Shown: positions 50,083 to 53,020 of the stretch, in pieces | Position numbering within the stretch: the stretch's first letter is position 1 | Layout of the letters: each line of letters begins with the position of its first letter | Assembly: GCA_025362495.1 (NCBI GenBank) | Contig: JANYGI010000059.1 | Span: forward strand, 1 to 64,000 | Length of the DNA stretch: 64,000 nt | Source of the DNA: Byssovorax sp. | Lineage (GTDB): Bacteria > Myxococcota_A > Polyangia > Polyangiales > Polyangiaceae | Direction of reading: 5' to 3' | Notes under the pieces: model-generated | The model's input: only the letters and a program-made list of their open reading frames with translations | Told to the model about the DNA's origin: nothing | Database searches by the model: none | Position numbers and translations under genes: made by a program

Positions 50083-50964
50083 TCAGGCCGTCGGCGACAG
50101 CTCCAGCCAGAACGGGGTGTCGTTGCAGCCGGCGGTGACCCACGAGAGCTCGAGATCGGCGAAGGCCCGATCGAAGCGCTCGTGGCCCACGAGCTGCGCA
50201 AACTCGAGCTGTTCGGCCATGAGCGCTGCTTTCACCGACGGTAGCAGCGCCCGGGCCGCGGACAGGCCGGCGCCGCCGAGCTGCGCGCGGCAATAGGTCA
50301 CGTGCCCGACCTCGTCGATCATGATCTGGTGCAGGAGCGTGGACAGGCGCTCCCACAGGCGGGGCTCGTGGCCAAACAGCTCTCGCCCGGTATCGAGGAG
50401 CAGTCGAAAGATGACCACCGCCACCAGCTCCGAGCAGAGGATCAGCGGCAGCGCCACCCGATGCGGCAGCCGGACCATCGCGTGCACCAGGAGGCGCGTG
50501 GCGAGGTCGGGCTCGCGGACGGTGATCTCCAGGTCGAAGCAGCGGAGGACGTCGAGCAGGATCCGGGTGTGATAGACCTCCTGCATATCGACGTACGCCT
50601 GGGTGTTGGCCCGATCGCCGTCGAGGATGCCATTGACGACGATATGCACTTCCATCCCGAAGTGCTCGGTGCGGTTCGCCTTGGCCACGGCGAGGAGCCA
50701 GAGCATGTCCCGCGAGAGCCCGGCGTCGGGCCTGGACGCGTCGTGGTTGCGACGGAAGAGCGGCCGATCGAGGGGAAGCTCGCTGCGAACCGGATCCCTG
50801 GCGAGGCCCTCGAAGAAGGGCTCCCGCCGGGCGAGGCTGCGCGAGGAGAAGTCGAGCCGACCCTCCCGCCGCTTGAGGTACTCGAGGTAGTCGGCCGCCG
50901 CTGAAGCCCGCTGGGACGGTGCAAGGGGCGTGAAGAGCGACTCGGCGGTGGGCGAGAGTTTCAT
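50083..50964 (-). CDS. Ferritin-like di-iron protein of the sterol-type operon
   Basis: 293 aa. Two ExxH motifs (QEVYH: Glu129/His132; DEVGH: Glu218/His221) and two further helix glutamates (Glu100 in RTEHFGMEVH, Glu179 in LCSELVAVV) give the four-helix, two-ExxH pattern of a carboxylate-bridged di-iron site, as in AurF-like N-oxygenases and other ferritin-like oxidases. No signal or TM anchor, though helix 165-190 is hydrophobic. It starts inside the stop codon of the upstream SDR gene (TGATG), so it is translationally coupled. Likely an O2-using oxidase or hydroxylase acting on the product of the two upstream enzymes (inference). Confidence 0.78.
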   Translation of the reverse strand: MKLSPTAESLFTPLAPSQRASAAADYLEYLKRREGRLDFSSRSLARREPFFEGLARDPVRSELPLDRPLFRRNHDASRPDAGLSRDMLWLLAVAKANRTEHFGMEVHIVVNGILDGDRANTQAYVDMQEVYHTRILLDVLRCFDLEITVREPDLATRLLVHAMVRLPHRVALPLILCSELVAVVIFRLLLDTGRELFGHEPRLWERLSTLLHQIMIDEVGHVTYCRAQLGGAGLSAARALLPSVKAALMAEQLEFAQLVGHERFDRAFADLELSWVTAGCNDTPFWLELSPTA

Positions 50965-51995
50965 CAGGAGGGATCTCGGGTGAAAGGCGTCTTGGCGGGC
51001 GTCGGGAGGCCGCGAAGCCAGGTGAGCGTGCGTGAATACGCTTCCTCGGCGCTAACGATTGGCTGGTAGCCGAAGTCGCGAGTCGCCGCCGCGTGGGTGA
51101 ACCAGAAGTCGCGGCAGGTCGCGGCCACGGTGTACCGCGTGATGACCGGTCCGGTGCGGATCCAGCGGCTGAACAGCCCGTACCCGGCCTCGACGCCGTG
51201 GGCCACCGCCCACGCCACCGGGCCCGGGAGCGCCATCCGGCGGCGGATGCCGAGCGCTTTCAGATAGGGCTCGACGAAATCGAAGAAGTTCGTGGGCTCG
51301 TGGTCAGTCACGAAGTAGGCCCTTCCGCACACCGGCGCGCCGGGCCCGAGGGCCTCGGCCGCGAGGACGTGGGCGTGCGCGACGTTGTCCACGTAGACAT
51401 GAGAGAAGCGGGCCCGACCATCGCCCATCGGGATGAACCCGAGAGCGCGCACGTGCTGGAGGAGGACCGGGAAACGGTTGCGATCGTGGGGCCCGAAGAT
51501 CCCCGCGGCGCGGAGCGAGACAGTGTTCATTCCACCCTCGCCGTCGGCGCTCCGGACCATCTGCTCGGCCTCGGCCTTGGTGCGCCCGTAGTCGTCCAGG
51601 AACCGGCTCGGGTACGGCAAAGACTCGTCCCCCGCCGCGATGCCGGCGCCGGAGAAGACCACGTCGATGCTGCTCGTGAACACGAACCGCGGGACGCGCT
51701 CCGCCTTGCCGGCCGCGAGCATCGCGGCCGTACCACCCACGTTGACAGCCTCCATCCGCGCGACGTGCGCCGGGTGCTGCGACACGATGGCGACCGTGTG
51801 AAAGATGGTGTCCACTCCAGCGCAGGCTTCGCGGGCAGCGACAGGGTCGGTCACGTCGCCGACCCGGCTGTCGACGCGCGCGTCGGGGTGAGCGACGAGG
51901 TCGAGGACCCGCACCCGCCAGCCGGCGGCGAGGAGCGCGTCCACCAGCGCGCGCCCGGTCAACCCCAGGCCTCCGGTCACGAGAGCCAGCCTCAT
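50964..51995 (-). CDS. 3beta-hydroxysteroid dehydrogenase/isomerase-type SDR
   Basis: 343 aa. Extended SDR: Rossmann motif TGGLGLTGRALVDALL (7-22), VLDLVAHPDARV acidic loop, FTSSIDVVFSG active-site Ser, and catalytic YGRTK (Tyr136, Lys140). The later SHVYVDNVAHAHVLAAEAL and RAYFVTDHEPTNFFDFVEPYL are characteristic of the 3beta-HSD / NSDHL (sterol-4-alpha-carboxylate 3-dehydrogenase) branch. Its start overlaps the stop of the Rieske gene by four bases. In bacteria that demethylate sterols at C-4 an enzyme of this type (SdmB) oxidises the 3-OH and allows decarboxylation; this is a possible role here. Confidence 0.85.
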   Translation of the reverse strand: MRLALVTGGLGLTGRALVDALLAAGWRVRVLDLVAHPDARVDSRVGDVTDPVAAREACAGVDTIFHTVAIVSQHPAHVARMEAVNVGGTAAMLAAGKAERVPRFVFTSSIDVVFSGAGIAAGDESLPYPSRFLDDYGRTKAEAEQMVRSADGEGGMNTVSLRAAGIFGPHDRNRFPVLLQHVRALGFIPMGDGRARFSHVYVDNVAHAHVLAAEALGPGAPVCGRAYFVTDHEPTNFFDFVEPYLKALGIRRRMALPGPVAWAVAHGVEAGYGLFSRWIRTGPVITRYTVAATCRDFWFTHAAATRDFGYQPIVSAEEAYSRTLTWLRGLPTPAKTPFTRDPS

Positions 51996-53020
51996 CCCGC
52001 GGCCATCCGGGCCTCGACGCGGGGATAGAAGCGCTTCGCCCAGGACCGGTACCGGCCAATCTCGCCGTCCGCCGCCGTGAGCCTGGGCCGGTCGAGGTAC
52101 TGCCGGTTTCGCCAGATCTGGATATCGGCGTCGACGTCGACGGCGACGGCGTTGACGAAGGAGCGTTTGGCAAGCCACGTGGCGCCGGGCACGGGCAAGC
52201 GGGCCATGTGAACGCTCAGGAGGAGCGTCACCTCGCCTCGCTCCCGGGGAGTGACGCTCTCGATGACGAAGGTGTTGATGTCGATCCCGATCTTCGGGAG
52301 ACGCATGACGGTGTGGATGGTCTGCAGGCCCATCCCGTACGCGCTCGCCGTGATGGTGCCCGACAGCGATTGGCCCGGGACGCCGAAGCGGGCTGTCGGG
52401 GTGGTGGCGCGGAGGCGGGTGGTGAGGCCGTGCTCGGTGTACGAGGTCTCGCTGTCCCCGACCGTGGACATGCCGTGGATGTACTGAAAATGGCCAGCAT
52501 CGACGGCGTTCTCGATCACGTCCTGAGGGTGTGACGGGAAGGTGCGGACGAGGCGCTCGGACGTGGGCCACTTCAGGCCGGGGTCGAGGAGGGTGCCTGG
52601 AAGCTCCCACGTCGGGGCCGAGTCGTCGGACGAATACCAGATCCAGATACGGTCGTGCACCTCCCGTGTCGCCCAGCTCCGCAGCGGCTTGCCGACCGGC
52701 AATTTCCGCGCGCCCGGGGCCGCGGTACATCGCCCGTCTCCCGAGAAGCGCCAGCCGTGGAAGGGACACACCACCTCTCCGCCGACGACCGCGCCCCCGT
52801 GCCCGAGGTGCGCGCCGAGGTGGGGACAATGGGCATCCAGCACGCGCACGGACCGGTCGGCTCCGCGAAAGACGACGAAATCCCTTCCAAACGCCCGGGC
52901 CGGCGTCGCGACGGCCGGGTTGACGTCGTTCGCCCAGCAGAGCGCGTACCAGCTGTCCGGAAAGGGTGGGAAGGGGAATCGGAGGAGGTTTGAGTGGTTC
53001 ATTGCTGTGAGCGCGAACAT
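51992..53020 (-). CDS. Rieske [2Fe-2S] oxygenase, sterol/steroid type
   Basis: 342 aa (or 336 from the Met at 53002). N-terminal Rieske domain with CPHLGAHLGHGG (Cys65, His67) and CPFHGWRF (Cys85, His88). Mononuclear iron site ENAVDAGHFQYIHGM (Asn171, Asp174, His177, His182). The DAHCPHLGAHL ... VVCPFHGW spacing and the C-terminal half resemble DAF-36/Neverland cholesterol desaturases, KshA, and the C-4 demethylase SdmA. First gene of a tight operon (Rieske-SDR-di-iron). Substrate is inferred to be a sterol or triterpenoid. Electron donors (ferredoxin reductase) are not encoded nearby. Confidence 0.87.
   Translation of the reverse strand: MFALTAMNHSNLLRFPFPPFPDSWYALCWANDVNPAVATPARAFGRDFVVFRGADRSVRVLDAHCPHLGAHLGHGGAVVGGEVVCPFHGWRFSGDGRCTAAPGARKLPVGKPLRSWATREVHDRIWIWYSSDDSAPTWELPGTLLDPGLKWPTSERLVRTFPSHPQDVIENAVDAGHFQYIHGMSTVGDSETSYTEHGLTTRLRATTPTARFGVPGQSLSGTITASAYGMGLQTIHTVMRLPKIGIDINTFVIESVTPRERGEVTLLLSVHMARLPVPGATWLAKRSFVNAVAVDVDADIQIWRNRQYLDRPRLTAADGEIGRYRSWAKRFYPRVEARMAAG

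Follow-up and report, generated by a model that had tools for sequence, protein, structure and literature searches.

Three overlapping genes at positions 50083 to 53020 of the window, the 64,000-nucleotide stretch of Byssovorax sp. DNA analyzed here, encode a Rieske oxygenase, a short-chain dehydrogenase/reductase (SDR) and a dimetal-carboxylate protein. In our estimate, the chances are about even that they form one small operon that oxidatively modifies a hydrophobic polycyclic lipid, either steroid-like or terpenoid, separately from the SdmAB genes of the host. Myxobacteria make sterols, and the enzymes that tailor them have not been identified (PMC10152446, PMC12004948). With its small size, its recurrence, two oxygen-activating enzymes of different kinds and an NSDHL-like dehydrogenase, the operon is a candidate for this role, although the unit is also present in a genome that lacks a sterol cyclase. 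The main interest lies in the third protein, the entry point to an unnamed dimetal family that has members in Myxococcota, in dozens of mycobacterial species and in some archaeal MAGs, and that in mycobacteria is paired with a TetR regulator.

Results

Organization of the operon

As originally noted, the genes overlap and read leftward on the minus strand, from 53020 to 50083. The gene for a KshA_C-type Rieske non-heme iron oxygenase (P0001, 51992..53020, 342 aa) is followed by that for an extended, 3beta-HSD/NSDHL/OleD-like SDR (P0002, 50964..51995, 343 aa) and by that for a putative ferritin-superfamily dimetal-carboxylate protein with an R2/R2lox-like fold, from an unnamed family (P0003, 50083..50964, 293 aa). 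The Rieske stop and the SDR start share a 4-bp ATGA overlap (51992..51995, minus strand), an arrangement of translational coupling, and the SDR stop and the start of the third gene meet in a TGATG junction (50962..50966, minus strand). GC content at codon positions 1/2/3 is 0.64/0.53/0.87 in the Rieske gene, 0.70/0.53/0.88 in the SDR gene and 0.72/0.44/0.89 in the third gene. Differences from the orthologues at L061, a locus of an uncultured Myxococcales MAG, fall heavily on third positions, with per-position values of 0.27/0.24/0.58 for the SDR and 0.28/0.14/0.51 for the third gene. By codon-position GC and these third-position-biased differences, all three genes are coding. A promoter and terminator scan gave no signal above chance. 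The neighboring genes are unrelated to the three: a convergent 878-aa ORF, which we take from its translation, judged by eye, to resemble glycogen phosphorylase, and a 2963-aa ORF, which on the same basis presumably resembles cyclic beta-glucan synthase.

The Rieske and SDR proteins

The first protein contains the Pfam Rieske (70.4 bits, cut-off 20.3) and KshA_C (91.2 bits, cut-off 23.3) domains, which place it in the KshA_C group. Its [2Fe-2S] motifs are complete (C65-P-H67 and C85-P-F-H88), and so is the mononuclear iron motif, D174-x2-H177-x4-H182, with a further Asp later in the chain, within DVDADIQIW (about 295-299). The nearest relatives of known structure are KshA chains (4qdc and 4qdf, E 3e-36). 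In our tree, the protein pairs with a 57% identical orthologue from G011, a 64% complete MAG (support 100/100), and the L061 Rieske protein, just 35% identical, is sister to this pair with weak support (83/78). KshA proper is a separate clade (100/100) that excludes the window protein, ~27% identical to KshA, and SdmA is remote. The Rieske protein had been described as being in the style of DAF-36, KshA and SdmA. The KshA_C domain bears out the family that contains KshA, and the SdmA part fails, with a low score on the SdmA model (53.6 bits) and no VanA_C domain. Two further KshA_C Rieske genes are found on host contigs C173 and C56 (L025 and L026).

The second protein matches Pfam 3Beta_HSD with 194 bits (gathering score 22) and has a GxxGxxG motif, GGLGLTG from residue 8, and a YxxxK motif, Y136-x3-K140. 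Its nearest solved relative is human NSDHL (6jkg, E 1e-30, 34% identity over 234 residues). Domain, motif and nearest structure thus agree on the 3beta-HSD/NSDHL-type SDR that was expected. The best NCBIfam model is OleD, and the score of 187 bits is far under the cut-off of 580, which places the protein outside OleD. An SDR tree is split with 100/99 support, with the window protein and its 64% identical L061 orthologue, whose gene adjoins the Rieske gene there, on the NSDHL side and SdmB on the other.

These affinities bear on the possibility that the operon degrades imported steroids, with the SDR oxidizing the 3beta-hydroxyl and the Rieske protein acting as a KshA-like 9alpha-hydroxylase. 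The KshA_C domain, the proximity to KshA among solved structures, the 3Beta_HSD domain and the location of a third-gene relative near KstD and KshA in M. triplex are all in line with such a pathway. The separate clade of KshA proper and the low identity to it argue in the other direction. So does a search with NF009479 (PRK12845), a model that we take to represent the 3-ketosteroid dehydrogenase KstD: it scored 1056 bits in M. triplex, whereas the genomes of the host, L061 and G011 yielded no KstD-like gene. Actinobacterial-type degradation of the steroid ring (9,10-seco opening) is therefore disfavored in these genomes, and the window Rieske protein, outside the KshA clade in a host lacking a KstD-like gene, does not qualify as KshA proper. 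We consider steroid degradation by the operon unlikely.

The host has separate SdmAB-like genes

The Rieske and SDR proteins were originally proposed to be an SdmAB-like pair for C-4 demethylation of sterols, in a window with no oxidosqualene cyclase. The cyclase does lie outside the window, and it is not missing from the genome. A compact sterol cluster on host contig C31 (L024:6370-13457) consists of a squalene/phytoene synthase-type gene, squalene epoxidase, SdmB-like and SdmA-like genes and an oxidosqualene cyclase, so that the genome check suggested at the time returned both squalene monooxygenase and cyclase. The cyclase scores 842 bits with osq_cycl versus 230 with hopene cyclase, and it is the only cyclase-family gene found in the host genome search.

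A host with an oxidosqualene cyclase, the combination of a Rieske oxygenase with a 3beta-HSD-like SDR and the closeness of the SDR to NSDHL, the eukaryotic counterpart, would all suit an SdmAB-type demethylase joined by an extra enzyme. The NCBIfam models point elsewhere. The C31 gene scores 399 bits with SdmA (NF052579), against 53.6 bits for the window Rieske protein, over residues 23-182 only (curated cut-off 600), and with SdmB (NF052578) the scores are 335 bits for the C31 gene and 65 bits for the window SDR. The catalytic domain is VanA_C in the C31 SdmA-like protein and KshA_C in the window protein. The expected grouping with SdmA and SdmB is also absent from the trees, where the SDR stands apart from SdmB and the Rieske protein far from SdmA. 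In addition, one genome that carries the unit is 95% complete and lacks squalene and oxidosqualene cyclases alike. We thus rejected the window pair as SdmA and SdmB on model scores, the SDR clade and the host's own SdmAB-like genes on C31, and regard an SdmAB-type demethylase with an added enzyme as very improbable. SdmC was considered as well for the SDR. Its published identity to SdmB is 51% (PMC10202945); the window SDR reaches 30% with the host SdmB-like protein, and we rejected SdmC on this ground.

The third protein carries a full set of dimetal ligands

The third protein has no match in Pfam, NCBIfam or PDB sequences. Residues E100, E129-x2-H132, E179 and E218-x2-H221 are invariant in 38 relatives, and these six ligands make up a full carboxylate dimetal set, beyond two ExxH motifs. 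The earlier description as a two-ExxH ferritin-like protein was right about the motifs and the ferritin-superfamily bundle and too narrow about the ligands. An AlphaFold2 model of the protein is a helical bundle (pLDDT 94), and the model and the ligand order (E, ExxH, E, ExxH) together place it among the ferritin-superfamily dimetal carboxylate oxidases. VIA-align comparisons with R2lox and ribonucleotide reductase R2 gave Z scores of 13-14.3 and rmsd values of 3.3-4.4 over 209-233 residues, with no sequence match to R2, and no PDB entry was matched by Foldseek below E 0.2. With R2lox and R2 as its nearest relatives by VIA-align and a Foldseek E-value of at least 0.2, we classify the modeled protein as a diverged dimetal-carboxylate protein. 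The N-oxygenase AurF (PF11583) was tried and rejected, as the protein gave no match and one of ten relatives gave a sub-threshold score (13.7 versus 29.6 bits).

The unit recurs in rearranged forms

At L061, the Rieske and SDR genes share an ATGA overlap, and a third gene encoding a protein 67% identical to that of the window lies tail-to-tail with them within 10 bp. This genome is 95% complete with 1% contamination, figures taken from entry G200, which we equated with L061's G184 by shared contig and coordinates. It has no match to the oxidosqualene cyclase model, a model that also detects the squalene-hopene cyclase of B. subtilis. In G011, an SDR gene precedes the Rieske gene with an ATGA overlap, in reverse order relative to the window. 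This SDR is a different one of the NSDHL/OleD type (37%), and the third gene (67% identical) is on another contig, adjoining a gene for an SRPBCC protein. Recurrence of the three-gene unit is thus seen in L061, where all three genes are together, and in part in G011. The two arrangements indicate that the linkage outlives changes in order, orientation and SDR. The 35% identity of the L061 Rieske protein and the 37% identity of the G011 SDR show the unit to be a mosaic and not a set of three orthologues. The third gene, predicted to be an added partner outside the SdmAB pair, proved to be a conserved one that recurs with Rieske and SDR genes in other genomes. In the set of 184 genomes from the order, just the host and G011 have close matches to the Rieske protein, and the same two are alone in closely matching the third protein. 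The other KshA_C genes that we retrieved all lack an SDR gene of this kind within 1.5 kb.

An alignment search of 84,980 species genomes yielded 76 loci of the third-gene family, whereas a single third-protein query against genome contigs gave no match. The family is widespread and unnamed in the main databases. Members are present in 30 of the 379 genomes of the phylum, in dozens of mycobacterial species and in some archaeal MAGs. Of the mycobacterial loci (L073-L112, e.g. L084:7378-8816), at least 31 have the family gene directly 3' of one encoding a TetR/ScbR-like regulator. One mycobacterial group has the relative adjoining acyl-CoA dehydrogenase, thiolase and lipase genes, and the relative in M. 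triplex lies beside acyl-CoA dehydrogenase/thiolase genes, ~17 kb from KstD and KshA. A distant relative adjoins an SDR gene at L066. The majority of the distant relatives, among them those from mycobacteria, Woesearchaeota and many Myxococcota, have no adjoining Rieske or SDR gene, and many family members have unrelated neighbors. Presence of the family has no significant tie to oxidosqualene cyclase within the order (6/11 versus 46/173, Fisher p 0.08). Relatives with 36-43% identity occur on Woesearchaeota/Nanoarchaeota MAG contigs (L064, L068, L069 and L087), at two of which (L064 and L068) the gene is right 3' of a gene of methionyl-tRNA synthetase size, the domain having been checked in L064 alone.

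At two further loci (L115:2135-5866 and L116:7995-11786), genes for a diverged third-protein relative, an SdmB-like SDR, a P450 and an SRPBCC protein (Polyketide_cyc2) have overlapping ends, and the top-scoring models for the P450 are those of biosynthetic P450s. This operon is possibly a related oxidation module. It bears on another explanation, that the window operon tailors a non-steroid metabolite such as a carotenoid, another terpenoid, a polyketide or a long-chain beta-hydroxy acid, with an OleD-like SDR. The biosynthetic affinity of the P450 and the cyclase-free L061 genome are consistent with this idea, as is the fact that OleD outranks the other NCBIfam models for the SDR, albeit with a score far under the cut-off. 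To our knowledge, however, the characterized enzymes of the KshA/Neverland Rieske group (KshA and Neverland/DAF-36) all act on steroids. We judge a non-steroid substrate somewhat unlikely, with a better case than steroid degradation.

Discussion

On our best reading, the unit is a mobile module that oxidizes a polycyclic lipid, steroid-like or otherwise, which we put forward as the candidate substrate class. The three enzymes probably act together on a steroid-like lipid. The KshA/Neverland-type Rieske oxygenase would oxidize a ring or methyl carbon, drawing electrons from a reductase whose gene lies elsewhere. The NAD(P)-dependent SDR could interconvert a hydroxyl and a ketone at a neighboring position, perhaps with decarboxylation. 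Both NSDHL and OleD act on beta-hydroxy or beta-keto acids, suggesting that the SDR may oxidize a hydroxyl beside a carboxyl made by an oxygenase. The R2/R2lox-like dimetal protein might then perform a second O2-dependent two-electron oxidation of the same molecule. The original prediction of a related oxidation is plausible in the form of a recurring steroid- or terpenoid-oxidizing unit with a dimetal partner; its SdmAB part is not retained.

Steroids are favored as a class because the Rieske family that contains KshA clusters with Neverland (PMC4064121). Given the cyclase-free L061 genome, a sterol made by the cell itself is not required as substrate, which may be an imported steroid, a tailored sterol or another terpenoid. 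A hopanoid, named earlier as an alternative, is unlikely in the host, since the only cyclase gene found there is an oxidosqualene cyclase and L061 has none. A broader proposal, which we offer tentatively and hold to be less likely than not true in full, is that the undescribed dimetal-carboxylate oxidase family, the KshA/Neverland-type Rieske protein and the NSDHL-like SDR constitute a new two-oxygenase route of steroid or polycyclic lipid oxidation in Myxococcota, with the mycobacterial family members serving steroid or lipid metabolism under the TetR regulator.

Several known systems are close to the operon. R2lox, ribonucleotide reductase R2, AurF and COQ7 share the ferritin-superfamily bundle and the E, ExxH, E, ExxH ligands with the third protein (VIA-align Z ~14 to R2lox and R2). 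They differ from it in sequence, with ~10% identity and no significant Foldseek E-value, and it belongs to no Pfam or NCBIfam family. The sterol C-4 demethylases SdmA and SdmB likewise combine a Rieske oxygenase with a 3beta-HSD-like extended SDR; in contrast to them, the operon has a KshA_C catalytic domain, an SDR of another clade and an extra dimetal enzyme, and SdmAB-like genes are found elsewhere in the host. The 3-ketosteroid 9alpha-hydroxylase KshA has the same Rieske and KshA_C domains and is the closest enzyme among solved structures, but the window protein is outside its clade and its host has no KstD. For the cholesterol 7-desaturase Neverland/DAF-36, kinship is based on domain content and the published clustering (PMC4064121). 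The extended SDRs NSDHL and OleD have the 3Beta_HSD domain and the NAD(P) and YxxxK motifs in common with the window SDR, which scores far below the OleD cut-off and, unlike those systems, is encoded together with a Rieske oxygenase and a dimetal protein.
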